64,000 bases of DNA from Burkholderiaceae bacterium (GTDB lineage Bacteria; Pseudomonadota; Gammaproteobacteria; Burkholderiales; Burkholderiaceae_C): NCBI GenBank assembly GCA_017992055.1, contig JAGOPK010000001.1, positions 682,001 through 746,000 on the forward strand, read 5' to 3'. The notes below the pieces were generated by a model that saw only the letters and a program-made list of their open reading frames with translations, was not told where the DNA came from and did not search any database. The position numbers and the translations under genes were made by a program. Shown piece after piece: positions 20,860 to 48,517 of the stretch (positions are counted from its first letter, which is position 1; each line of letters opens with the position of its first letter).

Positions 20860-21474
20860 ATGAAGATTCCGATGGGCCATGGGGCCAAGCGTGTTTTGCT
20901 GGCCATGGCGGCCGCAATGGCCTGTGCGTCGACGCAGGCTGCCGGTGATCCGACCTGGTTCGGCGTCGATGTGGCGCCCACCGCCGGTGGCAGCTTCTGG
21001 CTGAGCTGGCTCGACGATGCCGTGCCCGAGGACACCGGCTTCTCAGACACCAGCGTGGTCGTGGCCTACGACGCGTCGGTGCTGACGCTGACGGCCGCTG
21101 CCGCCGGCCAGGCCTTCGGCGTGGCCGCTCTGGGTCAGGTCGATGGCTACTGGGATCTGGAGATCGCCGGTGTGCCCTATGCGAACAGCCTGTTCTCGCT
21201 GTCGCGTGTCGAGGGCCTCGCGGCCTACCCGACCGACCTGCTGCACCTGCAGTTCGACGTGAAGCCCGGCACCCAGGGGCAGCTGACCAGCATCTACTTC
21301 TTCAATCCTGAGCCTGGCTTGGTCATGAACGGCTACTACTCGTTCGTGGACACCGGCACCGCGATCCAGGTGGCCGTGCCCGAGCCCGCCACCGTGGCTT
21401 CGATGCTGGCCGGCCTGGGCTTGCTGGCCGGCCTGGGCGTGGCCCGCAAGCGCCGGACGCCGCAGGCCGCCTGA
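20860..21474 (+). CDS. Small PEP-CTERM protein, possibly cohesin-like
   Basis: A 204-residue exported protein: basic start and signal peptide (KRVLLAMAAAMACASTQAAG), a beta-rich body, and a C-terminal PEP-CTERM signal (VPEPATVASMLAGLGLLAGL followed by ARKRR). The body has a pattern reminiscent of cohesin domains: SVVVAYDASVLTLTAAAAGQ in the first half and LLHLQFDVKPGTQGQLTSIY in the second. That fold assignment is tentative. It sits 139 bp before the giant LEPR-XLL gene, whose product ends in a dockerin-like pair, so a binding partnership is conceivable. The start at 20860 is the ATG opening the signal peptide. Confidence 0.8.
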   Translation: MKIPMGHGAKRVLLAMAAAMACASTQAAGDPTWFGVDVAPTAGGSFWLSWLDDAVPEDTGFSDTSVVVAYDASVLTLTAAAAGQAFGVAALGQVDGYWDLEIAGVPYANSLFSLSRVEGLAAYPTDLLHLQFDVKPGTQGQLTSIYFFNPEPGLVMNGYYSFVDTGTAIQVAVPEPATVASMLAGLGLLAGLGVARKRRTPQAA

Positions 21475-21613: not shown

Positions 21614-24600
21614 ATGAACACCTTCGCCAATACGCCGATTCGTAACAGCGCGTACGAAGTTCCGCCGTTCCGCCGCAAGGCCTTGTTCGAGGCCCTGGAG
21701 CCGCGGCTGCTGCTGTCGGCCGATCTGCTGCCCGGCGGCACGCCGGCGGTGGTGGTGGCGGCCTCGGCCGCGGCCGAGCCCAGCGTCGAGCTGAGTCCGC
21801 AGGCCAGCGAAAGCGCCACGCCGCTGCAGCTTTCACCGGTGGGGCCGCTGGAAGGCGGCGTGCGCCTGTCGCAGACCGAGAGCGGCTCGACCTCCGGCCA
21901 CTGGAACGACCTGCCGTTCGAGCACGAGTTCAGCGTCGACCTGGCCGCCGGCCAGCGGCTGAGCGTGGCCGGCATGCTCGATGCCGGCGAGTCCAACGAC
22001 TACTACGGCGTCGTGCTGACGCTGCTGGACCCCGAGGGCAACGAGGTCGGCAGCGCCGATGGCAACCAGCGTGCGCTGCTGCAGACCCTGGCGGCGCCGA
22101 TGGATGGCAGCTACAGCGTGCTGCTGCGGCTGGAGTTCCGGGCCGAGCCCGGCGAGTACAGCCCGCCCGAGAGCATCGCCTGGGAGCTGGTGGCGACCAT
22201 CGACGCGGCCATCGAGCAAGAGGCCATCGGCGACGGCAGCAACAGCTGGCTGGGCGATGCCCAGGCGCTGGACGACTTCCGCCCGCTGCCGCTGGGCGGC
22301 GCTTCGCGCACCGCGGTGGTCGGCGTGCTGGAGCGCGCGGCCGGCAACGGCAGCGATGCCGACACCTACCGCATCGACCTGGGCGCCGGCGAGACCCTGG
22401 AGGTCGAGACCACGCTGAGCAACCAGTACGGTTACCTGCAGCTGCTCAACGACCAGGGCCAGGTGGTGGCCGCGGCGGTGCGCACCGGCGAGTCCATGGC
22501 CTGGGAAGGTCCGATCGGCCTGCCGCGTTTCGTCAGCGAGGTCGATGCAACCTACTTCCTGCGCCTGGAGACCTGGTGGGACGAGACGCCCGGCCTGCCG
22601 CCGCTGGAATACACCCTGGTCGTGGCGCGCAATGCCAGCCTGGACCCGGACAGCCATGAGCGCCTGGGCGAGACCGGCGTGCAGCTGGTCGGCTTCCAGA
22701 CGCCGCCCGTCGAAGCCTCGGCCTCCGGCGAGCTGGCGCCGGCCTCGACGCAGATCGGCAACCAGCACCAGTACCTTGCGCTGGCCCAGTCAGACAGCGT
22801 GCTGATCGATCTGGCGCCCATCGCCGATGCCGGCAACCTCGGCGGCCTGTGGGCCGACCTGCGCGTCGAAGATGCCGACAGCGGCGAGACCCTGCTGCTC
22901 AGCGAGCAGGCCCCGCCCGAGGGCCAGGCCGGCCGCCGCTTCAGCGTGGCCACCGAGGTCGGCCAGCGCCTGCGCATCGTGCTGGAGGCCTATGACAACG
23001 GCCAGCTGCTGATGCAGGTGCAGGGCGCGGCGGGCGAGAACCCGCTGCCCGAGGTGCTGTACAGCTCGCTGGACGATGGCCGGGTGGCCGCCAGCTCGCC
23101 CTGGCAGTGGCTGACGCTGTCCGAGCCGGTGCTGGCCGACCGCCTGGGCGCGCCGCGTCTGCTGGACGGCGAGGGCCTGCAGATCGGCACGGCCCTGCTG
23201 CAGATCTACAGCCAGGGCGACTCGCTGAGCCTGCGCCTGCCCGACAACCTGCCGGCCGGCGACTACACCCTGGTCTTCGACGACGGCATGCTGTCCGATC
23301 TGAGCGGCCAGCCGCTGCCGGGCTTCGAGTACAGCTTCAGCGTCGACGACCAGCGGCCGCAGCTGCTGTCGCCGTCGCTGGCCACGCCGCTGGAGCTGCA
23401 GCCGGTCGACCAGAGCATCACGCTGCAGTTCGACGAGGCCATGAACACGGCCTACTGGCCCAACCCCAGCTTCACCGATGCCCAGGGCCAGCCCATGGAG
23501 CTGGGCTGGAGCCATGCCTGGTCGGCAGATGGCACCCAGCTGACGCTGCACCTGCAGGGCGAGCTGCCCGAAGGCCAGTTCACGATGTCGCTGGACGAAT
23601 GGGTGCTGCAGGACCTGGCCGGCAATACGCTGGACGCCGATCCGCTGAGCGCCGGCGTGCAGCCGCTGCAGCTGCGGCTGTCGGTGGACCGCGAGGTCTA
23701 TGCGATGCCGGCGCTGGCCGAGCGCGAGCCTTTCGGCGCCCTGGTCTATGCCAGCAGCGTGAATGCGGTGATCAACGGCGGCACCGGCAGCGACGATGTT
23801 GACGAGTTCACCATCGAGCTGCAGGCCGGCATGCGCATCACGCCGGTGCTCAGCGCCGCGCTGGGCCAGGCCGTGTCCACGCTGCCGCGGCTGGGCGTGG
23901 TGCTGGTCGATCCGGAGGGCGTCGAGCGGGCCTGGGGCGAAACCACCGCGCCCGGCCGCGCGCTGCTGCTGGATGAGTTCGTGGTGCCGCAGACCGGCAC
24001 CTGGCGCCTGCGCGTCAGCTCGCCCGATGGCGGCAGCGGCGCCTACCAGGCCTCGATCATCGTCGGCGCCGCGCTGCAGCGCGAGTTCACCGAGCTGAAC
24101 GGCCAGCTGCAGCCGTCCAATGGCAGCCGCGCCCAGGCCGAGGACCTGGAGCCCAGCTCGCGCAGCCTGGCCGAGGGCATCGACCGGCTGGCCAGCGTCG
24201 GCCGCTTCTCGCCGTCGTTCCATCCCGACACCGGCGCCCTGCAGTCCGACCTGGACTTCTTCAGCTTCACGCTGGAGGCCGGCCAGACCGCCAGCATCGT
24301 GCTGGCGATCCAGGGCACGACCCCGGTCAGCAACCTGCGCATGGCGCTGTTCGACGACTCGGGCGACTGGGCCAGTTCGGCCGGCCAGCTGGTGGCCGCG
24401 GCCATCAGCAGCCAGAGCGCCGACCGCATCATCCTCGACTACACCAACCACGGCGACAGCGCAGTGACGCTGTTCGCCCGCCCGCGGGCCGACAGCTCGG
24501 CCAGCTACACCCTGGTGGTGACGCGTGGCGCCGGCTTCGACGTCGGTGCCACCGACGGCGTGCCCCAGGCCCTGGGCCCCACCGGCGCGGTGCTGGGCGC

Positions 24601-27600
24601 CATCGACGGCTCCAGCGCCACCGTGGCCGGCGGCGTGGGCCCGATCAGCGGCAGCCCGGCCAGCCAGATGGACGTCTACGACGGCAACGGCTTCTACTGG
24701 GACATCGAATCGGACGGCAGCGTCAACAACGGCACCAGCGACGCCTACGACGGCGGCCTGTACCTGTCGCTGCAGGAAAACGGCAGCGACCAGGGCTTCG
24801 ACTACGAAAACGGCACGCGGGCCAATGCCAGCCAGACCCTGGCGCTGAGTGACGACACCGGCAACGACCTGCGGCTGGACCGCCGCATCTTCGTGCCCAC
24901 CAACGACGGCTTTGCACGCTACCTCGACCAGGTCACCAACACCGGCAGCAGCTCGCGCACGCTGACGCTGACCCTGGCCACCAACCTGGGCTCGGACAGC
25001 GGCACCCAGCTGATCGCCACCGACGCCGGCGACCTGGGCTACGACGCGGCCGACCACTGGCTGATCACCGACGATGCCGACGGCATGTACGACCCGTCGA
25101 TGGCCCATGTGGTGTGGGGCGACGGCGGCCAGGCGCCCGACAGCGCCTCGCTGTCGCGCGACAACATGCAGCAGCGCTGGACCGTCACCCTGGCCCCGGG
25201 CCAGACCGTGGGCCTGCTGCACTTCGCCGTGCAGGCGCAGAACCAGGCCACGGCGCGGGCCACGGCCGAGCGCCTGGTGCAGCTGCCGGCCGAGGCCCTG
25301 GCCGGGCTGTCACCGGCCGAGCTGGCCAGCATCGTCAACTTCAACACCGCCGCCGGTGATGCCTACCGCTTCTGGGCCCAGGCCGGCGACGAGCTGGCGC
25401 TCAGCGTGCAGGCCCTGGTCGACGGCGGCCTGCCGTTCACGCTGCGCCTGGTGGCGCCCGATGGCTCGGTGCGCCTGGACACCGGCACGCCCAGCGGCGC
25501 CCTGGCCGGCCTGAGCACCGGCCTCACGGTCGACCTGGCCGGCGAATGGACGGTCCAGGTCTATGGCGGCCAGTCGCGCGGCGAGTACCTGCTGCTGCTG
25601 CAGGGCGCCACCGGCACGGCGCCGGCGCCCCAGGTGGTGGCGGTGTCGCCCACCGCCGACCAGCCGGTGGCGGCCACGCCGGCCTACATCGACGTCAGCT
25701 TCGACAGCTTCATCCGTTCGGATTCGGCCCAGGCCGAGGACCTGGCGCTGGACGCCAGTGCCACCGCGGCCGGCGTCGCCGTCAGCTCGGTGGAGGTGCG
25801 CAGCGGCAAGACCCTGCGCTTCCATCTCAACGGCGTGCAGCAGCCCGAGGGCCTGGTCGGCTGGTCCATCGCCGATGGCGCCCTGATGGGCCATGACGGC
25901 CAGGGCAACCAGGCCGCCGACGGCAGCTTCTTCATCGACCGCACGGCGCCGGTGGTGCTGGGCGGCAGCAGCGGCTCGCAGCGCGCGCCGCTGCAGCAGC
26001 TGCAGTTCGTGCTGTCCGAGGCCATGGCCACGGCCGGGCTGGACCTGGACGACATCCTGTCCTTCACCGGCCCGCTGGGCGAGGATCTGCGCAACCAGAT
26101 CTATGCCGTCGAGGCCGATGGCGACCTGCTGACGGTGCGCTTCTACAACCAGTCCGCGCTGGGCCTCTACAGCATGACCCTGGCCGGCAGCGTGACCGAC
26201 CGCGCCGGCAATGCCCTGGACCAGGACGGCGACGGCCAGTTCGGCGAGCTGCAGGACGACAGCTTCAGCATCAGCGTGGAGGTCACCCAGGTCGACCTGG
26301 TGGCCGGCTCGCTGACGCTGCCCGAGAGCATGACCACCGGCCAGCAGGTGCAGCTGAGCTGGGTCATCACCAACCAGGGCAACAGCCCGCTGCCGGCCGA
26401 TTCCAGCTGGTACGACCGGGTCTGGCTGGAGTCCGAGGACGGCACGGTGCAGGTGCACCTGGGCGATTTCTCGCGCTACCAGTACGAGCCGCTGCCCAGC
26501 GGCGAATCGGTGCTGATCTCGCAGTGGATCACCGTGCCGCAGAACGCCAACCTGGCGTCGGGCAACTACCGGCTGCGCGTGCAGGCCGACATCTACGGCT
26601 ACATCGCCGAGTCCAACGACAACAACAACGGCGCGCTGTCCGAGGCCAGCACGGCGCTGACCGTGCTGCGCCCCGACATGGTGGTGCGTGATCTGGTGGT
26701 GCCGGCCCAGGTGCAGGGCGGCCAGAACTTCGAGGTCCGCTGGACCGACTTCAACCAGGGCGATGCCAATGCCAGCTCGCCCTATGGCTACTACTACGCG
26801 CGCATCGAGCTGCTGGACAGCAGCGACGGCGTGGTCGGCAGCTGGAGCCAGTACTACTACACCGACGGGCCCATCGAGGCCGGCACCGGCGAGGCGCGCA
26901 GCTACTGGCTGACCGTGCCCAGCGATCGGCCCGAGGGCGAGTACCGGGTGCGCGTCACCACCGACCTCTACAACTACATCGTCGAGCCGGGCGCCGAGGA
27001 CAACAACAGCAGCGTCTCCGAGCCCATTGCCGTGAGCCAGGTGGACCTGGTGCCGGTGTCGGTGACCACCAGCGCCAGCAGCGTCGACATGGGCGCCTCG
27101 CTGACCATCTCGTGGGAGGTGCGCAACGACGGCAGCGCCACCACCGAAGGCAGCAGCTGGTACGACCTGGTGCTGCTGATCGATCCGACCACGGGCCAGG
27201 AGGCCTGGTCCAGCTATGTGTCGGTCACGCCGACCCTGGTCTCGGGCGCCAGCTACAGCCAGTCCTACACCTTCAACGTGCCGATGTCCGCCGCGCTGGC
27301 CCGCGGCGACTACATCGTGCGCGTGATCGCCGACGGCTGGGGCTACCGCACCGAAGGCAACGAGAGCAACAACACGCGGGACGCCGAGCAGCTGCTGCAC
27401 ATCGTGCCGGCCTCGGTGGCCGACCTGGTGGTCACCGAAGTCACGCCGGGGGTGGCCAGCATCGCCGCCAACCTGGAGCTGGCGCTGAGCTGGACCGTCG
27501 CCAACCAGGGCGACGCCGCCAGCGGCTATTTCTACGACCGCATCTTCCTGGTCAACGAGGCGGGCAGCGCCACCTACCTGGGCGAGATCTACCAGAACGC

Positions 27601-30600
27601 CGGCCTGGCCGCCGGCGCCTCGATCACGCGCGAGACCACGGTGCACGTGCCGCACACGCTGCCGGTGGGCAACTACCGGGTGCGCGTGGTCAGCGACTGG
27701 TACGACCATGTGGAGGAGTTCAACGACGAGAACAACAACACCGGCGAGTCCACGCCGATCAGCGTGACCACGGCCATCGTCGCCGACCTGCGCATCGACA
27801 GCGTCACGCCGCCGGCCTCGATCACGCTGGGCCAGCCCATCACCGTGGCCTGGACCGGATCGAACCAGGGCACCGGCGACATCCCCGCCGGCAGCGGCTG
27901 GTACGAGCGCGTCGAGCTGCTGCGCGCCAGCAACAACGCCGTGGCCTTCACCACCTATGTCTGGGTCACGCCCAGCGGCGGCGTGCCCGCCGGCGGTGGC
28001 AGCTACAGCGGCAGCCTGACGTTCACGCCGCCGCTGGACGCGGCCAACCTGCCCGAGGGCGACTACCGCATCCGCGTCACGGCCGACCAGTACTACAACT
28101 ATGTGCGCGAGTCCGACGAGAACAACAACAGCCTGACCAGCAGCGGCGTGGTGCCGCTGCTGGCCGCGCCCACGCCCGACCTGGTGCCCGAGGTGCCGGT
28201 GGTGTCGACCAGCTCGGCACCGGCCAATACCCGCGTCACCATCAGCTGGAACGAGCGCAACGACGGCGACGCGGCCACGTCCGGCGGCTACTACACCCGC
28301 ATCGACCTGATTCGGGTCAGCAACGGCAGCACGGTGCTGCAGCAGTTCCCGCTGTTCAATACGCCGGCCAGCATCAACCCCGGCGAAACGGTGGCGCGCA
28401 GCCAGGAGATCGTGCTGCCGGCCAGTCTGACGCCGGGCCAGTACCGGGTGCGCGTGGTCACCGACCACTACGGCAACATCAACGAATACGACCGCGAGGG
28501 CAACAACACCGCGCAGTCGGTCGAGTTCACCGTCACCGAGGCCATCCGCGCCGACCTGGGCAATGTGCGCATCACCTCCGAGCTGCCGGCCGCGCCGCAG
28601 TTCGGCAGCACGCTGAGCCTGACCTATGCGGTCGACAACATCGGCAGCGGCAGCACGCAGAACGTGCGCTGGAACGACAGCGTGCGCCTGGTGCGCATCA
28701 GCGACGGTGCCGTCATCTCGACCACCAATGTGACCTCGGGCAACACCGGCACCGGCGTGGCCGCCGGCGGCAGCTACAGCAACACCGTGGTGCTGAGCCT
28801 GCCGCTGCAGGCCGGCACCAACTCGGGCGACTACCGCATCGAGATCCTGACCGACACCAACAATGCGTTGAACGAGGCCGACCGCAGCAACAACAACGGT
28901 GCCAGCGCAGCCCTGGCCGTTGCCGTGCCGCCGCTGGCCAACCTGGTGGTGCGTGATGTCACGGCCCCGGCCGCCGTCACCGCCGGGCTGGAAATGGACG
29001 TGTCCTGGGTTGTCGACAACATCGGCGACGGTGGCCTGTACCTGCGCCACGGCGCCAGCTACAACTACTTCCACGACCGCGTCTACCTGGCCGATGCCAG
29101 CGGCGCCAACCTGCTGCGCGAGCTGGGCACCTTCCAGGTCAACGGCCCGTTCCCGGCCGATGCCGACCCGCTGGCGCGGGTGCAGCGCATCACGCTGCCG
29201 GACACGGTGGTCAACGGCACCTACACCATCGTCGTCGTCACCGACTATCACAACTACATCGAGGAACACAACGGCGAGAGCGACAACCGCGCCGTCTCGG
29301 CCCAGTTCACCGTCACCCAGCCGCCGCGCGTGGACCTGCAGGTCGATACCGTGGCCGTGCCGCCCAGCGCCCAGGCCGGCAGCACGCTGTCGCTGACCTG
29401 GCGCACGCGCAATGCCGGCAGCGCCGACTTCGTCGGTGGCTTCCGCGAGCAGGTGCAGATCTCGCCGGTGGCCGACTTCAGCAGCGGCGTGCAGACGCTG
29501 TCGCCGGCGGCCGACTTCAGCGGCAACCTGGCCGCCGGGGCCAGCGTCGAGCGCAGCGCCACGCTGACGCTGCCGATCTCGGTCAACGGTCCCAACGACG
29601 TGACGCGCAGCTGGTATGTGCGCGTGGTCACCGACACGCTGAACCAGGTCTATGAATACGACCTGGAGAACAACAACGCCAGCACCCCGGGCAGCACCGT
29701 CATCACCCGGCCGGCCCTGCCCGACCTGGTGGTCGACAGCGTGGACGCGCCCGATGCCGCCGTGGCCGGCACCGAGGTGGTGGTGACCTACACCGTCACC
29801 AACAACGGCAGCGCCGAGGCCGGTGCACGCACCGACCGCATCCGCCTGAACGTCGAGAGCGGCTCGGCCTGGGCCCTGGTGCTCGACAACGTCGTCGATA
29901 CGCCGCTGGCCGCCGGCGCCTCGCAGACCCTGACCGCGCGCTTCACGCTGCCGGTGAACAACGGCAACACCGGCTTCAGCGGCCGGCTGCGCGCCCAGGT
30001 CACCACCGACGTGCTGGGCCAGGTCAGCGAATACCCGCTGGACGACAACAACTCGCGCCTGGACCTGAACCAGCTGGTGGTGAGCCTGCCGCCGCTGCCC
30101 AATCTGACGGTGGGCGACATCGTCGTGCCGCTGGATGCGCTGACCGAGACCGACATCCCGCTGCGCTGGACCATCAGCAACAGCGGCGCGGCCGCCGTCA
30201 CCGGCGGCTGGACCGACTACCTCTACCTGTCGGCCGACGGCGTCATCGATGCCAGCGACCGCTTCGTCGGGGCCTACAACATCGAGGCCCAGCTGGCCGC
30301 CGGTGCCTCCATCGAGCGGGTGCAGACCTACACCGTGCCGCAGGACCTGGTGGGCACCTGGCGCCTGCTGGTGCGCACCGATGCCGCGGGCCAGATCTTC
30401 GAGGGTGCAGGCGGCGAGAACGACAACGTCGGCATCGATGGCCAGACCCTGAGCACGCGGCTGCGTCCGCTGCCCAACCTGGTGGTGCAGACGGTCACGC
30501 CGCCGGTGAATGCCTTCTCCGGCCAGGAGGCCGTGGTCAGCTGGACCGTGGGCAACGTCGGCACCGGCGCCACCTCGGTGCCGGTGTGGCGCGACGCCGT

Positions 30601-36600: not shown

Positions 36601-39600
36601 CCTGGACAGCGACGCGGCCGACGATGCCAATGCGCTGAGCCTGCAGTTCGCCACGCTGGACGGCGCCACGGCCGAGGTCGGCGAGTTCGAGACCGCGGCC
36701 ATGGACCCGGCCTTCGAGAAGCTGCTGGTCACGCCGGCGCCGGTGGACACCGGCACCGGCCTGGACTCGGCCTCGCTGATGCCGCTGGCCGGCTGGCCGC
36801 TGTTTGCCGTGCCCGAGGACTGCAAGCAGTGCACGCCCGAGAAGCTGAAGAAGATCACCGAGGCGGCGCCCGACTGCCGCCCCGGCGGCGGCTCCAGCAC
36901 CACGCTGGACAGCAAGAAGTGCATCGAGAAGACCATCACCTACGCGCCCTGCGTGACGCGGCCCAGCGACCCCAACGACATCGTCGGTCCGGACGGCTAT
37001 GGCGAGGAGAAGTGGGTCAAGGCCAGCGAGGCGCTGGAGTACACGATCCGCTTCGAGAACCAGGCCAGCGCCACCGCGCCGGCCCAGGTGGTGACCATCA
37101 CGCAGACGCTGGACGAGGACCTGGATGCGCGCAGCTTCCGCGTCACCGGCTTCGGCTTTGCCGACCTGCGCATCGACCCGGCGCAGAGCCGCGCCTCCTA
37201 CAGCGGCCGGCTGGACCTGCGCGAGAGCCAGGGCATCTACCTGGACGTGACGGCCAACATCGACACCGCCACGCGCCTGATCACCTGGACCTTCACCACC
37301 ATCGACCCGGCCACCGGTGACGTGCCGGTGGATGCCAACCTCGGCTTCCTGCTGCCCAACGACGACACCGGCCGTGGCGACGGCTTCGTCAGCTACACGG
37401 TCAAGCCGCTGCGTGCGGCCGACACCGGCACGGTGATCGACGCCCAGGCGCGCATCGTCTTCGACACCGAGGCGCCCATCGACACGCCGGCGATCTTCAA
37501 TACGCTGGACGTCGGCCTGCCCAGCAGCCAGGTCGAGGCCCTGCCCGAGACCACCAGCGAGTCCACCTTCACCGTGCGCTGGGGCGGCACCGACGCCGAA
37601 GGCGGCTCGGCCATCCGCGACTACGAGGTCTACGTCAGCACCGACGGCGGCGAATGGACGCTGTGGCAGCTGGCCACCAGCGACACCGAGGCGGTGTTCG
37701 AAGGCGAGGGCGGCCACGTCTATGCCTTCTACAGCGTGGCGCGCGACAACGCCGGCAACGTCGAGGCCGCGCCGGCCACGGCCGATGCCACGATCCGCGT
37801 GCTGGCCCAGACCGGCAGCGTGTCCGGCATCGTCTTCGGCGACATCGACGCCGATGGCAGCCAGGACGAGGGCGAGGCCGCGGCCGAAGGCTGGACCGTG
37901 TTCGTCGACGCCGACGCCGACGGCACGCTGGACGAGGGCGAGCTGTCGGTGGTCACCGCCGCCGACGGCGCCTGGAGCTTTGCCGAGCTGCAGCCCGGCG
38001 ACTGGCGCATCGCCATCCAGCCGCGCTCGGGCTTCGAGGTCACGTCGCCGCTGGCCGGCTACCACGATGTGGCGGTCACCGCCGGCGGCGCCGTGTCGGG
38101 CCGCAACTTCGGCACGCTGGCCCTGGGCTCGATTGCCGGGGCGCAGTTCAACGATGTCAACGGCAACGGCCAGCGCGAGGCCGGCGAAGACGGCCTGGCC
38201 GGCTGGACGGTGTTCATCGACGCCGACGGCGACGGCCTGCTCGACGCCGGCGAGCGCTCCACGCTCACCGCCGCCGACGGCAGCTATGCCTTCGACGGCC
38301 TGCGTGCCGGCACCTACCAGGTGGCGGTGGTCACGCCCGAGGGCTGGATCCAGACCCGGCCGGGCACCTCGGCCGCCGGCCAGGCCAGCACCGCCACCGT
38401 GGTCACGCTGGCCGGCTCGCTGGCCTCGATCAGCCTGCCGGCCTGCGCCTGCGGCGGCACCGTCACCACGCTGGCCGCGCAGCAGGCCGGCTGGGACGAG
38501 CAGCTGGTCGAGCTGGACCAGCTGCGCGCCGACCCGGGTTATGCCGGCGTCGACGGCAGCGGCATCCGCGTGGTGGTCATCGACACCGGCATCGACGCCT
38601 CGCATCCGTTCTTCGACGGGCGCGTGGTCTACCAGTACGACTTTGCCGACAACGATGCCCAGGCCATCGACCGCAACGGCCATGGCACGCACGTGGCCGG
38701 CGTCATCGCCGGTGCCGACGCCATGTTCGGCGGCGTGGCCCAGGGTGCCGAGCTGATCGTGCTGAAGGTCTTCGGCGACGACGGCAGCGGCTCCTTCGCC
38801 AACCTGGAGCGCGCGCTGCAGTGGGTCAATGCCAATGCCGCGGCCTGGAACATCGGCGTCGTCAACCTGTCGCTGGGCGACGGCAGCAACTGGGACAACG
38901 CGGGCAGCCGCTACGGCCTGGGTGACGAGTTCGCGTCCCTGGCGGCCAAGAACATCATCACCGTGGCCGCGGCCGGCAACAACTACGCCAGCGTCAATGC
39001 GCTGGGCGTGGCCTATCCGGCCGCCGACCCGGCGGTGCTGGCGGTGGGCGCGGTGTGGACCGGCGACTTCGGCGGCCCCTGGAGCTTCGGCAACGGCGGC
39101 ACCGACCATGTCACCGGCCTGGACCACATCGCCAGCTTCAGCCAGCGCGACGATGACCAGGTGGACATCTTCGCGCCCGGCGCGCGGCTCACCTCGGCGG
39201 CCATCGGTGGCGGCGTGCGCACCATGCAGGGCACCAGCCAGTCGGCAGCCTATGTCTCCGGCGTGGCCGCGCTGGCCCAGCAGCTGGCCCACCAGCACCT
39301 GGGCCGCTCGCTGACCGTGGGCGAGTTCCACGAGCTGCTGGCCAGCACCGCCGTCAGCATCAACGACGGCGACGACGAGCGCGACAACGTCAACAACACC
39401 GGCCTGAACTACGGCCGGCTGGACGTCAAGGCGCTGGCCGACGCCATCGTCGCCATGTCCGGTGGCAGCACCGGCGGCGGCCAGCCCGGCGGCGGCGACG
39501 AAGGCGGCGACGGCGACACGCCGACGCTGCCGGCCGCCGGCGGCGGTGCCATCACCGTCGAGCTGGGCGTGGGCGAGGCCGAGACCGGTGCCGACTTCGG

Positions 39601-41350: not shown

Positions 41351-41386
41351 TGCCGGCCTGAACGTCAGAACGACGGCGGCAGCAAG

Positions 41387-41414
41387 GATCAGGGGGCCCT
41401 CGGGCCCCCTGATC
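41387..41414. terminator. Strong hairpin after the LEPR-XLL gene
   Basis: Two 13-base arms, GATCAGGGGGCCC and GGGCCCCCTGATC, are perfect reverse complements with only 2 nt between them. It starts 37 nt after the giant gene's stop and ends 4 nt before the nominal start of the next gene. There is no T-run. It may end most transcripts or act as a processing or attenuation point that lowers expression of the downstream export genes. Confidence 0.65.
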
Positions 41415-41418
41415 GCTG

Positions 41419-43389
41419 ATGTCCGTCGCGGGCCGCCTGTCTCATCCGTTCTCGCGCCGGAGTCCCGTCGTCTTGGAACCGAACGAACGTGAAGGGCGGA
41501 GCGCCACCGCCGCGGTCGCCACCGTCGCCGCAGCGGCCAGCTCCGCCAACCAGGCCTGGACGGCCTTCACCCAGGCCGACTCGGTCGGCGCCTTCGCCCA
41601 GTCCTGGCTGGCCCTGGTGGCCGAGCAGGTGGGCCGTGCGCGGCGCGCCATGGTGCTGCTGCGGGGCGCCGATGGCAGCTTTGCGCCGGTGGCCTTCTGG
41701 CCCGCCGCCGAGCTGGACATGACCGACCTGGCCGAGCCGGCACGGCGCTGCCTGGCCGCGCGCAGTGCCCAGGCCGAGCTGCTGGCGCCACCGGCCGGCG
41801 CCGCGGCCGGCACGCCGGCGGCCGTGCCGGGCCTGGTGCTGGCCTATCCGGTGGACCTGCGCGGCGAGCTGCGCGGCGCCGTGGTGATGGACGTGATGGG
41901 CCGGCCCGAGGCCCAGGTGCAGCAGGCCTTTCGCGCGCTGACCTGGGGCATGGGCTGGCTGGACGCCATGCTGCGCGGCGAGGAGGCCACGCAGCAGGCC
42001 ACGGCCGCCGAGCGCAGCCGCCAGGTCATCGACGCCATGCTGCGCGTGGCCGAGGCCGCCGACCTGGACGAGGCCGCGCACCTGGCGGTGGACGGCCTGG
42101 CCGAGCGCCTGGGCCTGTCGCGGGCCTCGCTGGGCCTGGTCGACGATGGTGGCGACCGCGTGCGGCTGCAGGCCTTGTCGGCCACCGCCTGGTTCGACCA
42201 CCGCAGCGCCCTGGTGCGGCGGCTGGAAAACGCCATGGAGGAGGCCTGGGACCAGCGTGCCAGCCTGGTGCTGCCGGCGCTGGCCGAGCGGCCGGTGGCG
42301 GTGGACCTGGCCCACCAGGCGCTGGCCGGCGGCGGTGAGGGCGGTGCCGGCGCGGTCAGCGTGGCCTCGGCCGTGGTGCTGGCGCGCAGCCAGGCGCTGG
42401 GCGTGCTGTGCATCGAGCGCCCGGCCGAGCGGCCGATCAGCGCTGCCGACCTGGCCACGCTGGAGGCCTGGGCCCAGGCCCTGGGCCCGGTGCTGGCCCT
42501 GCACCGCGACGGCAACCGCTGGCTTGCCGGACGCTCGCGCCGGCAGTGGCTGGCCGTGCGCGAGGCCTTCAGCGATCCACGCCGTCCGTCCTGGCGCATC
42601 GGCGCGGCGGTGGTGGCCGTGCTGCTGCTGGCGCTGGTGTTTGCCGACGGCCACTGGCGCATCAGCGCGCCGGCCACCATCGAGGGCGCGGTGCAGCGCG
42701 CCGTGGTGGCGCCGTTCGAGGGCTTTGTGCGCAGCGCGCCGGTCAAGGCCGGCCAGCGCGTCAAGGCCGGCGATGTGCTGGCCACGCTGGACGACCGCGA
42801 CCTGCTGCTGGAGCGCGAGCGCCATGCCAGCGAGCGCGACCGCCACGAGCGCCGCTACCGCGATGCGCTGTCGCGCCACGAGCGCGCCGAGGCGCGCATC
42901 GCCGCGGCCGAGATGGCCGAGGCCCAGGCCCAGCTGGCCCTGGTCGAAGAACGCCTGGCACGCACCCGACTGGTCGCGCCGTTTGACGGCCTGGTGGTCT
43001 CGGGCGACCTGAGCCAGCAGCTGGGCAGCCCGGTGGAAAAGGGCAAGACGCTGTTCGAGGTGGCGCCGCTGGATGCCTTCCGCGTGGTGCTCAAGGTCGA
43101 CGAGACCGACATGCGCGGCGTCGCCGTGGGCCAGCGCGGCCAGCTGGTGCTGGCCGGCCTGACCGGCGATACGCTGGGCTTTGCGGTGCGTGGCATCTCG
43201 GTGGCGGCGCCGGCCGATGGCCGCAATGCCTTCGAGGTCGAGGCTCAGCTCGATGCCGCGCCGGCCATGCTGCGCCCGGGCATGGAAGGCGTCGGCAAGA
43301 TCGAGGCCGGCGAGCGCCGCTTGCTGTGGATCTGGACCCACCGCTTCACCGACTGGCTGCGCCTCAAGCTCTGGCAGTGGCTGCCCTGA
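41419..43389 (+). CDS. GAF-HlyD fusion: membrane-fusion adaptor with cytoplasmic GAF domains
   Basis: A 656-residue protein. Residues about 55-185 and 190-370 look like two GAF-type sensor domains (VIDAMLRVAEAADLDEAAHL ... ALGVLCIERPAERPISAADL). A single membrane segment follows (WRIGAAVVAVLLLALVFADG, about 391-410). Then comes a HlyD-type periplasmic part: lipoyl half VVAPFEGFVRSAPVKAGQRV, a charged coiled coil (ERHASERDRHERRYRDALSR), second lipoyl half TRLVAPFDGLVVSGDLSQQL, and a beta-barrel. The topology puts GAF inside and HlyD outside. The start is uncertain: the ATG at 41419 has no clear ribosome-binding site, while a TTG at 41473 has GGAG 10 nt upstream. First gene of the candidate export cluster, 4 nt before the next gene. 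Confidence 0.82.
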   Translation: MSVAGRLSHPFSRRSPVVLEPNEREGRSATAAVATVAAAASSANQAWTAFTQADSVGAFAQSWLALVAEQVGRARRAMVLLRGADGSFAPVAFWPAAELDMTDLAEPARRCLAARSAQAELLAPPAGAAAGTPAAVPGLVLAYPVDLRGELRGAVVMDVMGRPEAQVQQAFRALTWGMGWLDAMLRGEEATQQATAAERSRQVIDAMLRVAEAADLDEAAHLAVDGLAERLGLSRASLGLVDDGGDRVRLQALSATAWFDHRSALVRRLENAMEEAWDQRASLVLPALAERPVAVDLAHQALAGGGEGGAGAVSVASAVVLARSQALGVLCIERPAERPISAADLATLEAWAQALGPVLALHRDGNRWLAGRSRRQWLAVREAFSDPRRPSWRIGAAVVAVLLLALVFADGHWRISAPATIEGAVQRAVVAPFEGFVRSAPVKAGQRVKAGDVLATLDDRDLLLERERHASERDRHERRYRDALSRHERAEARIAAAEMAEAQAQLALVEERLARTRLVAPFDGLVVSGDLSQQLGSPVEKGKTLFEVAPLDAFRVVLKVDETDMRGVAVGQRGQLVLAGLTGDTLGFAVRGISVAAPADGRNAFEVEAQLDAAPAMLRPGMEGVGKIEAGERRLLWIWTHRFTDWLRLKLWQWLP

Positions 43390-43393
43390 ACGC

Positions 43394-45541
43394 ATGACCG
43401 CCGCCTTCCACAGCGACGCCTGGTATCGCATCGCCGAGCTGGTGCCGCGCCTGGCGCGCGAGGCCCAGGTGCACCGCCAGCGCTACCGCGGCGCGGCCTG
43501 GTATGTGCTGCGCGAACCGGCCGGCGGGCGCCTGCACCGCTTCACGCCGGCGGCCTGGCTGCTGGTGTCGCTGATGGACGGCCAGCGCACGGTGGATGCG
43601 ATCTGGCAGCAGGCCGTGGCCCGCCTGGGCGACGATGCACCGACGCAGGACGAGGTGCTGGGCCTGCTGGCCCAGCTGCACCAGGCCGACCTGCTGCTGG
43701 CCGATGTCTCGCCCGATGTCGACGACCTGCTGTCGCGCGGGCGCAAGCAGCGCCGCTCGCTGTGGGTGAAGAACCTCACCAATCCGATGTCGCTGCGCCT
43801 GCCGCTGTGGGATCCGGATGCGTTCCTGACGCGCACCCTGCCGGGCCTGCGCTGGCTGCTGTCGCCGCTGGGCGTGGCGCTCTGGCTGGCCCTGCTGCTG
43901 CCGGCCGGCGTGGCCGCGGCCATGCACTGGCAGGCCCTGACCGGCAACCTGAGCGACCGCGCGCTGGCGCCGGACAACCTGCTGCTGCTGCTGATCGTGT
44001 TTCCGCTGGTCAAGGCGGTGCATGAGCTGGCCCATGGCTGGGCCGTCAAGGCCGGCGGCGGCGAGGTGCACGAGATGGGCCTGATGCTGCTGGTGCTGGC
44101 GCCGGTGCCTTATGTCGATGCCTCGGCCAGCACCGGCTTTCGCAGCCGCTGGGCGCGGGCCGGCGTGGGTGCGGCCGGCATGATGGCCGAGCTGGGCCTG
44201 GCGGCGCTGGCCATGGGCGCGTGGCTGCTGGTCGAGCCCGGCCTGGTGCGCAGCCTGGCCTTCAACGTGATGCTGGTGGCCGGCGTGTCCACCCTGGTCT
44301 TCAATGCCAACCCGCTGCTGCGCTACGACGGCTACTACATCCTCTGCGACCTGATCTCCATGCCCAACCTGGGCCAGCGCGCCACGCGCTGGTGGGGCTG
44401 GCTGGTGCAGCGCCATGCCTTCGGCGCCCACGACATCGAGCCGCCCGACGAAAGCCCGGCCGAGCGCCGCATCCTGCAGGCCTATGGCGGCCTGTCCTGG
44501 GTCTACCGCATGCTGGTGGTGTTCGGCATTGCGCTGTTCATTGCCGAGCAGTACTTCTTCATCGGCGTGCTGCTGGCGGTGTGGGGCGTGGTGCAGGGCG
44601 CGCTGTGGCCGCTGCTGAAGTCGCTGCGCTTCGTCATCGCCTCGCCGCTGCTGGCGCGCCAGCGCCAGCGCGCGGTGGGCATCACCGCCGGTGTGCTGGG
44701 CCTGGTGGCGCTGCTGCTGGTGGCGGTGCCGATGCCGCTGTCCACGCTGGCCGAGGGCGTGGTCTGGGTGCCCGAGCAGGCCGAGATCCGCGCCCGCGCG
44801 CCGGGCACGCTGGCACGCCTGCTGGTGGCGCCGGGCCAGGCCGTGGTGGCCGGCCAGCCGGTGGCCGAGCTGTCCGATCCGGGCCTGTGGACCGAATACG
44901 ACGTGCAGCGCGCCCGCGTCGAGCGCCTGCAGGTGCAGGTGGCTTCCGAGCTGGTCAGCGACCGCGCCCAGGCCGCCGCCACCGCCACCACGCTGGACCG
45001 CGAGCTGCGCGGCCTGGCGCGGCTGGAGGAGCGCATCGACCAGCTGGTGCTGGTGGCCGGCAGCGACGGCCGGCTGCTGGTGCCGCGCGCCGCCGATGCC
45101 GAGGGCCGCTGGCTGAAGCAGGGCGACCAGCTGGGCTATGTGCTCGACGGCGCGCTGCGCAGCGCGCGCCTGGTGGTCACGCAGGACGACATCGGCCTGG
45201 TGCGCCACCGCCTGCGCCACATCCGCGTGCGCCTGGCCGACCGCCTGGATCAGGTGCACGAGGCGCGCATCGTGCGCGAGGTGCCGGGCGGCAGCGACCG
45301 CCTGCCGTCCAAGGCGCTGACGCCGGCGGGCGGCGGCCAGCTGCTGGTCGACCCCAGCGATGCCGACGGCCTGCGCACGCTGAACCGCGTGTTCGTGTTC
45401 GAGCTGGCCCTGCCGGCCGACATCGGCTCGCCGCAGCTGGGCACGCGCCTGCATGTGCGGCTGGAGCACGAGCCCGAGCCGCTGGCGGCCCAGGCCTGGC
45501 GGCGGCTGCGCCAGCTGTTCCTGAGCCGCTTCGACCTGTGA
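43394..45541 (+). CDS. PqqD-like / M50 (site-2-type) peptidase / lipoyl fusion
   Basis: A 715-residue multi-domain membrane protein. Residues about 25-105 resemble a PqqD-type winged-helix peptide-binding domain (RFTPAAWLLVSLMDGQRTVD, then LLAQLHQADLLLAD). A multi-pass region follows with the M50 zinc motif HELAH (His210, Glu211, His214) and the third-ligand motif NPLLRYDG (residues 306-313). After further membrane segments, the C-terminal part carries a HlyD-like lipoyl half (RARAPGTLARLLVAPGQAVV), a coiled coil and a barrel. In peptide-modification systems PqqD-like domains grip leader peptides, so this protein might bind and cut the LEPR-XLL leader of the giant protein; that link is inference. 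Confidence 0.85.
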   Translation: MTAAFHSDAWYRIAELVPRLAREAQVHRQRYRGAAWYVLREPAGGRLHRFTPAAWLLVSLMDGQRTVDAIWQQAVARLGDDAPTQDEVLGLLAQLHQADLLLADVSPDVDDLLSRGRKQRRSLWVKNLTNPMSLRLPLWDPDAFLTRTLPGLRWLLSPLGVALWLALLLPAGVAAAMHWQALTGNLSDRALAPDNLLLLLIVFPLVKAVHELAHGWAVKAGGGEVHEMGLMLLVLAPVPYVDASASTGFRSRWARAGVGAAGMMAELGLAALAMGAWLLVEPGLVRSLAFNVMLVAGVSTLVFNANPLLRYDGYYILCDLISMPNLGQRATRWWGWLVQRHAFGAHDIEPPDESPAERRILQAYGGLSWVYRMLVVFGIALFIAEQYFFIGVLLAVWGVVQGALWPLLKSLRFVIASPLLARQRQRAVGITAGVLGLVALLLVAVPMPLSTLAEGVVWVPEQAEIRARAPGTLARLLVAPGQAVVAGQPVAELSDPGLWTEYDVQRARVERLQVQVASELVSDRAQAAATATTLDRELRGLARLEERIDQLVLVAGSDGRLLVPRAADAEGRWLKQGDQLGYVLDGALRSARLVVTQDDIGLVRHRLRHIRVRLADRLDQVHEARIVREVPGGSDRLPSKALTPAGGGQLLVDPSDADGLRTLNRVFVFELALPADIGSPQLGTRLHVRLEHEPEPLAAQAWRRLRQLFLSRFDL

Positions 45542-45554
45542 TGGGCGGCCTGTC

Positions 45555-47585
45555 GTGAGCCGCGTCTTGCTGCAGCAATGGCAGGCCCAGCATCTGCGCG
45601 CCGGCCCGGTGGTCGAGCGCGACGACGGCCACGAGCAGGCGCTGGACCGCTGGCTGGCCGGCTGGCATGGCTGGGCCGCGCCCTGGCTGTCGGCCTGGCG
45701 CTGCCGCCGCCTGCGTGCCGACGTGGCCGCGGTGCTGGCCCAGGAAGCAGCGCTGCAGGCGCTGGACGAGGCCGGGCTCGATGCCCACCTGGCCGCCACC
45801 CGGGCGCGCCTGCAGTCCGAGGGCCTGACGCGCGGTGCGGTGCAGCAGGGCTTTGCGCTGGTGCGCGAGGTGTCGCGCCGCACCCTGGGCAAGGCCCATT
45901 ACCCGGCCCAGCTGACCGGCGGCCTGGTGCTGCTGGACGGGCGCCTGGCCGAGATGCAGACCGGCGAGGGCAAGACCCTGACCGCGCTGCTGCCGGCCGT
46001 CACCGTGGCCCTGGCCGGCGCGCCGGCCCATGTGGTGACGGTCAACGACTACCTGGCCGCGCGCGATGCGCAGATCATGGAGCCGGTCTACCGCCGCTGC
46101 GGCCTGCAGGTGGGCGTGGTGGTCGAAGGCCAGGAGCCCGAGCAGCGCCAGGCCGCCTGGCGCTGCCCGGTGGTCTACACCACCAACAAGGACCTGGTGT
46201 TCGACTACCTGCGCGACCAGCTCGACCATGGCGGCCGCCACCTGCACGCGGCCGTGCGCCCGCTGCTGGGCGAGCGCGGCGGCGCGGCCGCGCGGCGGCT
46301 GCGCGGCCTGTACTTCGTGCTCATCGACGAGGCCGACAGCGTGCTGGTCGACGAGGCGCGCACGCCGCTGATCCTGTCGGCCGAGCGCCCGGGCGGCGAC
46401 GAGGCCGGCGCCTGGGCCGCGGCGCTGGAGGCGGCGCGTGCGCTGGAGCCGGGCATCGACTTCCGCCTGCGCCTGCGCGAGCGCCAGATCGAGCTGCTGC
46501 CGGCCGGCCAGGTGCGCATCGACGCGCTGTGCCAGGGCATGCACCCGCTGCTGGCGGCGCGCCGCGCCCGCCAGGCCATGGTGCAGCAGGGGCTGTCGGC
46601 GCTGCACCTGTTCCAGCGCGACCGCCAGTACATCGTGCGCGAGCACGAGGGCAAGCCCACGGTGCAGATCGTCGACGAGAACACCGGCCGCGTCATGCCC
46701 GACCGCACCTGGGAGCGTGGCCTGCACCAGATGGTCGAGCTGAAGGAAGGCCTGGCCGCCAGCAACAAGCGCGACACGCTGTCGCGCCTGACCTACCAGC
46801 GCTTCTTCCGCCGCTACCTGCGCCTGTGCGGCATGAGCGGCACGGCCATGGAGGTGGCGGCCGAGCTGCGCTCGGTGTATGCGCTGGACGTGGTGCGCGT
46901 GCCCACGCACCGGCCGGTGCAGCGCCGCCAGCTGGGCGCGCGCGTCTACTGGCGGGCCCAGGCGCGCTGGCAGGCGGTGGCCGAGCGCGCGCGCGAGTTC
47001 GCGGCCCAGGGCCGCGCGGTGCTGATCGGCACGCGCTCGGTGGGCGCGTCCGAATCGGTCAGCGCCGCACTGCAGGCGCTGGGCCTGGAGCATGCGCTGC
47101 TCAATGCCCGCCAGGACGCGGCCGAGGCCGAGATCGTGGCCCAGGCCGGCCAGCCCGGGCGCATCACGGTGGCCACCAACATGGCCGGGCGCGGCACCGA
47201 CATCCTGCTGCACGACGCGGTGCGCACCGCCGGCGGCCTGCATGTGATCCTGACCGAGTTCCACGAATCGGCGCGGGTCGACCGCCAGCTCTACGGCCGC
47301 GCCGGCCGCCAGGGCGACCCCGGCAGCTGCGAGGCCCTGGTGAGCCTGGAAGACGACCTGTTCAGCGGCTTCGGCGCGCTGCCGATGCGCCTGGTGCGGG
47401 CGCTGCTGGGCCATGCCCATGCCGCCGAGACCGACACCGCCCACCTGCCGTCCTGGCTGGGCCAGGCGCTGCGCCGCTGGGCCCAGCAGCGCGCCGAGGC
47501 GCATTTTTCCGCGGTGCGCCGCCGTACCATCACCCAGGACCGCGAGCTGGACCGCCGCCTGGCCTTCGGCGGCAAGCCGATCTGA
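45555..47585 (+). CDS. Shortened SecA-like ATPase
   Basis: A 676-residue SecA homologue with a GTG start. Motor motifs are intact: AEMQTGEGKT (Walker A, Lys140), VVTVNDYLA, VLIDEADSVLVDEARTPLIL (Walker B Asp258-Glu259), IVDENTGRVMPDRTWERGLH, and TNMAGRGTDI with the QLYGRAGRQGDPG arginine-finger region. The preprotein-crosslinking segment between the nucleotide-binding halves is present. After that the chain ends within about 70 residues, so most of the helical scaffold, the wing domain and the zinc tail of housekeeping SecA (about 900 aa) are absent. This is a specialised paralogue, located 13 nt after the M50 gene and 20 nt before a HlyD gene. Confidence 0.9.
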   Translation: MSRVLLQQWQAQHLRAGPVVERDDGHEQALDRWLAGWHGWAAPWLSAWRCRRLRADVAAVLAQEAALQALDEAGLDAHLAATRARLQSEGLTRGAVQQGFALVREVSRRTLGKAHYPAQLTGGLVLLDGRLAEMQTGEGKTLTALLPAVTVALAGAPAHVVTVNDYLAARDAQIMEPVYRRCGLQVGVVVEGQEPEQRQAAWRCPVVYTTNKDLVFDYLRDQLDHGGRHLHAAVRPLLGERGGAAARRLRGLYFVLIDEADSVLVDEARTPLILSAERPGGDEAGAWAAALEAARALEPGIDFRLRLRERQIELLPAGQVRIDALCQGMHPLLAARRARQAMVQQGLSALHLFQRDRQYIVREHEGKPTVQIVDENTGRVMPDRTWERGLHQMVELKEGLAASNKRDTLSRLTYQRFFRRYLRLCGMSGTAMEVAAELRSVYALDVVRVPTHRPVQRRQLGARVYWRAQARWQAVAERAREFAAQGRAVLIGTRSVGASESVSAALQALGLEHALLNARQDAAEAEIVAQAGQPGRITVATNMAGRGTDILLHDAVRTAGGLHVILTEFHESARVDRQLYGRAGRQGDPGSCEALVSLEDDLFSGFGALPMRLVRALLGHAHAAETDTAHLPSWLGQALRRWAQQRAEAHFSAVRRRTITQDRELDRRLAFGGKPI

Positions 47586-47605
47586 GACTTCTCTGCGAGA
47601 TCCCC

Positions 47606-48517
47606 ATGAGCCCCCTGACTCGCTACTCCTTTCTGCCCCTCTTGCTGTTGCCGCTGGCAGCCCTGGCCGGCGAGCACGACTGCGTGCTGGAGCCCCGCAT
47701 GACGGTGGACGTGCGCGCCCCGGTCGAAGGCCTGATCGAGCAGGTCTTCGTCGACCGCGGCGAGCGCATCCGCGCCGGCCAGGTGCTGCTGGTGCTGGAC
47801 AGCGGGCTGGAAAAGGCCAATCTGGAGCAAGCCAAGTACCGCGCCACGATGATCGGCGCGGTCAAGTCCGGCGAGAGCCGGGTCGAGTTCTCGACGCTGA
47901 AGCTGCAGCGACGCGAGAAGCTGGCCGACGGCCAGTTCGTCTCGCTGCAGGACCGCGACGAGGCCGCCGCCGAGAAGCGCCTGGCAGAGGCCGAGCTGGT
48001 GCAGGCGCGCGAGAACCAGCGCGTGGCCGTGCTGGAGCAGGTGAGGGCGTCCGAGCAGCTGCGGCTGCGCACCATCAAGAGCCCGTTCAACGGCGTGGTC
48101 ACCGAGCGCATGGCCCATCCGGGCGACCTGGCCGACAACCGCGACATCCGCAAGCCGCTGCTGCGCATCGCCGACATCGCCGTGCTGCATGTCGAGGCCC
48201 TGCTGCCGGTGGCCGCCTACCGCAAGCTGCAGCCGGGCCAGGCGCTGGAGGTGCGGCCCGATGCACCGGTGGGCGGCAAGCTGACGGCCAAGGTCAAGAC
48301 CCTGGACCCGGTCATCGACGTGGCCAGCGGCACCTTCCGCGTGCGCATGGAGCTGCCCAATGCCGACCTGAAGCTGCCCGCCGGCCTGACCTGCCGGGTC
48401 GAGGTGCCGGGCGTGGAGCGTGGTGGCGGCGGCCTGTCGGGTGCGCGCAGCCGGCCGGTGCCGGCGCCGGCTCCGGCCCCCAGCGGCGTGCCGGCCGCCG
48501 CTGCGGCGGCGCGCTAG
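47606..48517 (+). CDS. Periplasmic adaptor (HlyD/RND membrane-fusion family)
   Basis: A 303-residue exported protein: signal peptide (SFLPLLLLPLAALAGEHDC), lipoyl half DVRAPVEGLIEQVFVDRGER, a helical hairpin of about 95 residues, second lipoyl half IKSPFNGVVTERMAHPGDLA, a beta-barrel, and a short Pro/Ala-rich tail. The cleavage site might be followed by Cys26, but the spacing is not a clear lipobox. It would bridge inner-membrane parts to an outer-membrane channel, which is not encoded here. It follows the SecA-like gene by 20 nt and belongs to the same probable operon. Confidence 0.88.
   Translation: MSPLTRYSFLPLLLLPLAALAGEHDCVLEPRMTVDVRAPVEGLIEQVFVDRGERIRAGQVLLVLDSGLEKANLEQAKYRATMIGAVKSGESRVEFSTLKLQRREKLADGQFVSLQDRDEAAAEKRLAEAELVQARENQRVAVLEQVRASEQLRLRTIKSPFNGVVTERMAHPGDLADNRDIRKPLLRIADIAVLHVEALLPVAAYRKLQPGQALEVRPDAPVGGKLTAKVKTLDPVIDVASGTFRVRMELPNADLKLPAGLTCRVEVPGVERGGGGLSGARSRPVPAPAPAPSGVPAAAAAAR

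Follow-up and report, generated by a model that had tools for sequence, protein, structure and literature searches.

We analyzed a window of 64,000 nt from a Burkholderiaceae bacterium (GCA_017992055.1, contig JAGOPK010000001.1, positions 682,001-746,000, forward strand), in which the gene for a giant protein with an N-terminal LEPR-XLL tag is followed by a module of four genes. These encode a GAF-HlyD protein, a protein with PqqD-like, M50 protease and HlyD-like parts (hereafter the M50 protein), a SecA-like ATPase and a soluble HlyD-type adaptor. We consider it reasonably probable that the module is an export machine without an ATP-binding cassette (ABC) exporter, dedicated to LEPR-tagged giant proteins. 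An earlier note on this DNA had described a giant of 6578 residues followed by four genes on the same strand with gaps of 4, 13 and 20 nt, none of them a type I ABC exporter. The open reading frames and profile matches bear this out (with the gap of 68 nt behind the giant added, the order is 68, 4, 13 and 20 nt), and profile searches gave no ABC match in the four module genes, which therefore lack the ABC exporter of type I secretion. The relevant features are:

21614-41350, plus strand: giant LEPR-XLL protein, 6578 residues, ATG start (list of open reading frames, NCBIfam and Pfam profiles)
21683-21736, plus strand: LEPR-XLL tag, residues 24-41 of the giant, class 1 (LEPRLLLSAD; NF012209)
38555-39373, plus strand: subtilase (Peptidase_S8) domain within the giant (Pfam PF00082, 141 bits)
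41387-41414, plus strand: perfect stem-loop of 13 bp between giant and module, no T-run (folding, terminator scan)
41419-43389, plus strand: GAF-HlyD protein, 656 residues (PF01590, PF13437, PF16576)
43394-45541, plus strand: PqqD/M50/HlyD protein, 715 residues (profile matches, alignment, model)
43502-43696, plus strand: PqqD-like (RRE) domain, candidate tag reader (PF05402)
44021-44035, plus strand: HExxH zinc motif, residues 210-214 of the M50 protein (alignment of 24 sequences)
45555-47585, plus strand: SecA-like ATPase, 676 residues, whose last part, behind the second motor domain, is one long helix (profiles, model)
47606-48517, plus strand: periplasmic HlyD/RND-type adaptor, 303 residues, with an N-terminal hydrophobic signal (TIGR01730)

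A link between tag and module is supported by co-occurrence in 150 genomes of the order of the window (genomes, contigs and loci are labelled G, C and L). Profile searches find the LEPR family in 21 of these genomes and the SecA-like protein in 18 (28 copies). The SecA-like set was picked by hand (at least 399 bits, plus G147 with 364 bits in a 757-residue frame); the housekeeping SecA, with frames near 900 residues, scores as high as 366 bits, and because the listed matches end at about 317 bits the set may lack weaker relatives. LEPR is present in 16 of the 18 SecA-like genomes against 5 of the 132 others (Fisher p = 2e-15). The trio of GAF-HlyD, M50 and SecA-like genes stands together at 26 of the 28 copies (the window counted), and L113 and L115 begin at a contig end. 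Five genomes carry LEPR without the SecA-like gene (G093, G120, G032, G058 and G094), which we rejected as counterexamples: four have a different tag and a second class of M50 protein (class 2, see below), and the match in G094 lies in a frame of 23 residues. A DNA sequence pattern search was uninformative (131 matches in the window's own genome, with more in the control).

Similar tendencies are observed for 398 genomes of the phylum, a sample that overlaps with that of the order (G000, G049, G093 and others). Here a score of at least 650 bits defined the M50 protein of class 1, the class of the window, and LEPR matches were accepted to E 0.001. M50 scoring covered the two best candidate places of each genome, and G384 and G257 (best M50 517 to 547 bits) were left out of class 1. 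Class-1 M50 occurs in 37 genomes and LEPR in 41, and the two coincide to a large extent (LEPR in 32 of the 37 against 9 of the 361 others; p = 8e-34). In 305 genomes M50 has no match with an E-value of 1e-20 or below, and a single one of these has LEPR (G428, 86% complete); 46 of the 54 genomes with only a lower-scoring M50 have no LEPR match at E up to 0.001. As a control, the LEPR profile matched none of 14 well-known genomes. The expectation of the earlier note that tag and trio would co-occur far above chance thus holds in both samples.

Beyond the phylum we considered the best 80 of at least 577 M50 relatives retrieved with class-1 queries; this sample is not random, overlaps with the order sample (the LEPR places of G168 coincide with those of G118) and includes two loci that share a genome with another locus. 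The 80 span Pseudomonadota, Thermodesulfobacteriota, Myxococcota, Nitrospirota, Rokubacteria and Omnitrophota. Nearby, a SecA-like match is found for 77 (E up to 1e-5; some are contig-end pieces or low scores, as in L156, L171 and L186), GAF-HlyD for 77 and the soluble HlyD for 58. LEPR is present in 64 of the 75 searchable module genomes (41 of 48 plus 23 of 27), and a giant with LEARLLFSAD directly behind the module of L167, missed by the profile, gives the 65th. In L187 and L189 long open frames adjoin the module and start beyond the stretch. In L155 a LEPR giant follows GAF-HlyD and M50 after 0.6 kb, which links the system to Omnitrophota, a phylum known for giant genes.

Giants and modules are also often neighbours. 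We entered 59 of 106 LEPR places, chosen by the coordinates at hand, with contig identity checkable for 41 of the 59. Confirmed on the contig of the module, at 20 kb or less, are 23 places (22 on the same strand), and 16 further places fit by coordinates alone (14 on the same strand); the giants stand either before GAF-HlyD or behind the last module gene. Cultured carriers with a linked pair include Dyella sp. OK004, Frateuria sp. Soil773, Ramlibacter paludis and Massilia sp. Leaf139. For 13 of the 28 SecA-like copies in the order sample, the contig also carries a LEPR start with a frame leading to or from the module; many of the remaining copies are located on short contigs. The window's own genome contains four LEPR giants and four modules, among which are three adjacent pairs (C17, C18, C15), and the frame of the fourth giant reaches base 1 of its contig. 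The fourth module (L065, on C15) has a rearranged gene order, with a TolC-type gene adjoining M50 and no LEPR match nearby.

The tags fall into two classes, which correspond to two classes of machine. Among 56 LEPR matches read in the order sample, all 51 from SecA-like-positive genomes belong to class 1 and read L-E-x-R-x-[LM]-[LMYH]-[SA] (the first L may be M or I). The SecA-like-negative genomes have L-E-P-R-x-[LM]-F-D-[GA] in four of five tags (class 2), the fifth being that in the 23-residue frame. Behind the giants of G093 and G120 we find OEP/TolC, HlyD, a GAF-HlyD-like protein without a GAF match and M50, and the stretches read contain neither a SecA-like match nor an ABC motif; the giants of G058 and G032 extend past the end of their contigs. 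The class-2 M50 is a full-length homologue of that of class 1 (hhalign probability 100, E 2e-85, 22% identity) and occurs in 15 of the 150 order genomes. All 15 class-2 loci have an HExxH frame of more than 500 residues, where 15 of 15 means that each locus has one, since the frames were selected by HExxH.

A DNA pattern for the class-2 tag (YTNGAR...GAYGSN) was present in 11 of the 15 class-2 genomes against 13 of the 135 others (p = 1.6e-7), with the reservation that it misses LD[GA] tags and that several of the 13 outside matches look like chance (VVFD forms); for these reasons it was set aside as a tag finder. Of the 12 pattern places in class-2 genomes, 8 lie about 17 kb or less from the class-2 M50 on the same strand. 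The cross-pairings are at chance level (SecA-like with the FD pattern, p = 0.13; class-2 M50 with the SAD tag, p = 0.49), and in G029 and G088, where both classes occur, each class shares its contig with its own tag. Matches of the form LE-x-R-x-x-FD-[GA] without a detected class-2 M50 were seen in G028, G069 and G131; these are possibly a third tag group, or chance.

In the phylum, where tags were read for the nine LEPR genomes without class-1 M50 and, of the 32 with it, for G000 and G049 only, the eight LEPR genomes with only a lower-scoring M50 (including G093) all have D-[GA] tags, and G428, the sole LEPR genome without an M50 match, has LEPRVLLYGD. The giant of L351, with LEQRILFDGA, adjoins an OEP-like gene (by eye) and two HlyD genes; in L348 and L350 the end of a long open frame adjoins similar genes, and L349 has no giant in the stretch. 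A sister module of OEP, HlyD, HlyD and M50 without SecA-like gene stands behind LE[PQ]R-x-[LM]-F-D-G giants in L299, L301 and L351. Summarizing, the tag follows the M50 family and not the SecA-like motor. The earlier note had assigned LEPR proteins to the SecA-like trio; this does not apply in general, as FD[GA] and LD[GA] tags go with a set of M50, HlyD and TolC without an adjoining SecA-like gene, and we reject the SecA-like gene and LEPR as an obligate pair, given class-2 giants without a SecA-like gene in the stretches read. The M50 and HlyD part would therefore be the core, with the motor specific to one class.

Within the classes, variants of the tag follow the M50 tree as well. Among 50 linked pairs of tag and M50 (some linked by coordinates alone; two on opposite strands, in G171 and G209), an aromatic residue or histidine as the third residue after R (5 tags) requires 2 changes on the M50 tree, and as the first (12 tags) 3 changes; none of 500 shuffles gave counts as low as either. 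For the 18 SecA-like genomes, Y/H tags are found in 4 of the 5 with M50 clade A against 0 of the 13 others (two of them without tag; p = 0.0016), a count that covers the M50 copies on the tree and leaves out, for example, copies in G005, G052, G100, G137, G140 and G016. The tags of L194, L175, L076 and L147 read [QR]R[FY]L[LM]-x-A-[EQ] followed by prolines and belong to one M50 clade, in which L147, with its giant in the same genome, was placed by genome and not by linkage.

The M50 protein contains a candidate reader of the tag. PqqD (PF05402) matches it with 25.6 bits, above the gathering threshold of 23.4, and the PqqC/D chain 5sxy matches residues 18-102 (E 0.027, profile against PDB). The motifs of site-2 proteases (HExxH and NP-x4-DG) are present, with H210, E211, H214, N306, P307 and D312 invariant in 24 of 24 M50 sequences. 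The C-terminal HlyD-like part has a fold like the MexA/MacA adaptors (structure search), in a model with a mean predicted local distance difference test (pLDDT) of 84.7 and a predicted template modelling score of 0.59. PqqD-type domains are leader binders, and the simplest model is therefore that the M50 protein reads the tag.

Using the textbook names and roles of the SecA parts (wing, two-helix finger, clamp), the SecA-like protein aligns with SecA from the first motor domain through the substrate clamp to the second motor domain, after which it stops. Pfam gives SecA_DEAD (309 bits) and SecA_PP_bind (76 bits), with SecA_SW not among the matches at E up to 0.01. Eight NCBIfam models for SecA or SecA2 all remain under their cut-off (best 558 of 814; SecA2 429 of 930), and the protein is a member of neither equivalog. 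Lack of SecA_SW, the length of 676 residues and the single terminal helix agree with its earlier description as shortened. The Walker A and DEAD residues (G137, G139, K140, T141, D258, E259, D261) are invariant in 26 of 26 SecA-like sequences. The best PDB sequence matches are two SecA2 chains of C. difficile, one aligned to residue 607 of 781, with other SecAs next. The AlphaFold2 model (mean pLDDT 86.6) ends in a single long helix (633-670) and fits best on SecY-bound SecA with a translocating chain (Foldseek template modelling score, TM-score, of 0.81 and 0.82); free B. subtilis SecA has a TM-score of 0.67, yet the lowest Foldseek E-value. Given the invariant motor motifs and the model fit, the protein is likely to be an active motor that lacks the wing and the two-helix finger.

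The giant itself combines PPC, CARDB repeats, SdrD_B, subtilase and Big/cadherin-like domains (profile search), types usual in surface proteins, and its C-terminal part appears by eye to be cohesin-like plus dockerin-like. Its DNA contains no repeats of 150 bases or more, and the minus-strand open reading frame at 25310-40987 (5225 residues) would be the mirror frame of a G+C-rich gene. NF012209 (LEPR-XLL) scores 32.5 bits on residues 24-41 (curated cut-off 17), making the giant a member of this family. The earlier reading that the protein starts with LEPR-XLL and has no signal peptide stands in so far as the tag is N-terminal and a strong signal-peptide core is missing, but 23 residues precede the tag, with RRK immediately N-terminal to it. 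The best 12-residue Kyte-Doolittle mean within residues 1-70 is 1.69, against 2.48 for the soluble HlyD adaptor, and a value of at least 2.0 is reached by 3 of 149 LEPR N-termini (both tag classes; near-duplicates occur among them, and the search pattern put a few at a position other than the tag) against 13 of 19 soluble adaptors. The giant was rejected as a classical Sec substrate, its N-terminus being without a strong signal-peptide core. Immediately 5' of the giant gene, in the same orientation, lies a gene for a small protein whose tail is a PEP-CTERM sorting signal (window 20860-21474; PF07589, 25.1 bits); it is a second sorting system beside the LEPR giant.

The GAF-HlyD protein shows (by eye) a single membrane segment between its GAF and HlyD parts, and the soluble adaptor scores 123.7 bits with TIGR01730 (cut-off 94.9); a periplasmic HlyD-type adaptor of this kind is a component of type I secretion. 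TolC-type genes adjoin some modules, OEP adjoins the class-2 M50 in L299 and L301, and the window's own genome has 25 OEP matches outside the window, one adjoining its fourth module. The 68-nt gap between giant and module has a folding energy of -41.7 kcal/mol (z -4.84; 0 of 200 shuffles equally stable). Its 13-bp stem is absent from the list of the terminator scan because it has no T-run, and the scan gave no promoters or terminators in the module clearly above chance. With so strong a stem, read-through from giant to module is not certain; the stem is a possible attenuator that may set the ratio of giant to machine transcripts.

From these data we infer a mechanism in which the tag would serve as export signal. 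Its usual form is [FLV]-E-x-L-E-[PQ]-R-x-L-x-S-A-D behind a basic stretch, and the PqqD-like domain of the M50 protein would bind it in the cytoplasm. The SecA-like protein, which has kept the two motor domains and the clamp and lost the helical wing, the two-helix finger and the C-tail used on SecY, may in class 1 push the chain into a pore that the M50 protein forms or that lies beside it. The soluble adaptor, together with GAF-HlyD and the HlyD portion of the M50 protein, could bridge the periplasm as far as a TolC-type pore whose gene lies elsewhere in the genome, and the M50 site may remove the tag. For a more general reading we see about even chances: LEPR-type tags would be address labels of a family of non-ABC exporters read by PqqD-M50 proteins, with two sister machines, one with a stripped SecA (...L-S-A-D) and one with none (...[FL]-D-[GA]), each reading its own tag and both sometimes present in one cell.

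A number of observations weigh against a dedicated export machine of this kind. The SecA-like gene lacks LEPR in 2 of the 18 order genomes (G052 and G114, both fragmented), class-1 M50 lacks it in 5 of the 37 phylum genomes (G226, G304, G345, G361, G404), and after addition of L167 the module lacks it in 10 of the 75 genomes, all labelled metagenome-assembled genome; G182, a chromosome record of 2.8 Mb with a SecA-like frame of 524 residues and no LEPR match, is a real exception. These fractions show that the trio does not routinely occur without LEPR proteins, the outcome that according to the earlier note would have spoken against the system. The motor is not general, as it is missing from the class-2 stretches read, and L155 has no SecA-like match within 10 kb behind. 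Pfam M50 scores 18.1 bits, under its gathering threshold of 27.2, and the PqqD stretch is less certain in the model (pLDDT blocks of 62-64, residues 31-50). No TolC-type gene is located in the 64-kb window, and the own genome has two LssB-type ABC exporters above cut-off. Finally, a match between tag and module trees is expected without any recognition because neighbours are co-inherited, and linked inheritance alone could explain part of it.

Other explanations have to be weighed against the same data. It might be argued that the giant is exported by SecYEG and the housekeeping SecA and that the module matures it afterwards in the membrane (M50 cutting, regulated by GAF), with the SecA-like protein as an unfolding or feeding factor for SecY. 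The retained clamp and motors, a model closest by TM-score to SecY-engaged SecA, a best PDB sequence match to SecA2 of C. difficile and a class-2 cluster that does not include the SecA-like gene are all in line with this idea. SecYEG export needs no HlyD adaptors or TolC, however, and the LEPR N-termini mostly lack a signal-peptide core (the 3 of 149 against 13 of 19 given above); we regard this explanation as unlikely.

Less likely still is an exit of the giant through an ordinary ABC exporter of type I whose gene lies elsewhere, with the module as a co-regulated neighbour that has another job. The two LssB-type exporters could serve this purpose, frames before the modules of L133 and L187 have tails resembling calcium-binding repeats (by eye), and a Vibrio LEPR giant has RTX and serralysin domains according to the part of PMC10868602 available to us. 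Nonetheless, one of the two ABC genes lies about 100 kb from the module on C18, the other on C3 without a LEPR or SecA-like match, and it is the module that co-occurrence and the match of tag and machine class track. The patchy spread over several phyla, and the transfer inferred by Kamneva et al. (PMC4452313, as far as available), would also suit a package of giants and module moved by horizontal transfer without a working link. Here we see only a very slight chance: each class keeps its own tag even in G029 and G088, which have both, and G055 and G140 have LEPR on contigs other than that of the module, although contig breaks could hide linkage.

Overall, an export machine dedicated to LEPR-tagged giants would address the question of how bacteria export proteins that have 5,000 to 15,000 residues and no signal peptide. 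Genomes without the M50 family hardly ever have the tag that the cargo shares (1 of 305), which provides a partner both for the giants and for a module known since 2015, and the sister class without SecA-like protein lets the contribution of a SecA motor be asked inside one family. If true, the reading of address labels would amount to a secretion system distinct from the numbered types.

The earlier note was unsure whether the system had been described. The module has, without its cargo: in the available part of their paper, Kamneva, Poudel and Ward (2015; PMC4452313) present a four-gene module as a secretion-related locus whose broader role they state to be completely unknown, and M. extorquens AM1 (Methylobacterium extorquens AM1) has the same order of GAF, M50, SecA_DEAD and HlyD. 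The main text of PMC4452313 does not mention LEPR, giant, large protein, cadherin or PqqD. In the open-licence literature we did not find LEPR giants joined with the module, which is no proof of absence, nor the PqqD domain, the two classes or the match of tag and machine. The parts available of the LEPR-XLL papers PMC10868602 and PMC9611531 do not mention HlyD or SecA. Likewise limited to the parts available, the SecA-like domains of PMC3482391 belong to a different setting; PMC11573180 does not mention LEPR, SecA or HlyD; PMC12057145 has no SecA or HlyD (LEPR was not searched for there); and PMC5313232, PMC12288469 and PMC10066038 have no LEPR or HlyD, SecA appearing only in PMC5313232, which cites the 2015 paper.

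Compared with the module of Kamneva et al., as far as their text is available, the four proteins, the loss of the SecA wing-scaffold, the absence of an ABC transporter, the M50 protein as proposed pore and the patchy, wide spread are the same. Both of their hallmarks are found in the window: a SecA_DEAD protein with the wing-scaffold part wholly or mostly lost, and its coding together with GAF-HlyD, M50-HlyD and HlyD. In contrast, the 2015 paper names no cargo and no signal; what we add is the link with LEPR giants, the PqqD domain and a second class without the SecA-like protein.

Type I secretion shares the HlyD adaptors, a TolC-type pore at some loci and large, repeat-rich cargo, whereas the module has no ABC exporter and its candidate signal is N-terminal instead of C-terminal. 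Accessory SecA2 systems have dedicated cargo. They also resemble the module in having a second SecA besides the housekeeping SecA (PMC4452313, available part); the SecA-like protein differs in that it stops after one scaffold helix, remains below all SecA2 cut-offs and has HlyD and M50 proteins as partners. Maturation of ribosomally synthesized and post-translationally modified peptides (RiPPs) guided by PqqD/RRE domains, together with the HExxH protease of daptides (NF041824), likewise places a PqqD-like domain beside a protease of the intramembrane HExxH type, and NF041824 scores 153 bits over residues 18-396 of the M50 protein without reaching its cut-off of 300. In contrast to daptide and RiPP systems, the cargo of the module comprises thousands of residues and HlyD is fused at the C-terminus of the M50 protein.

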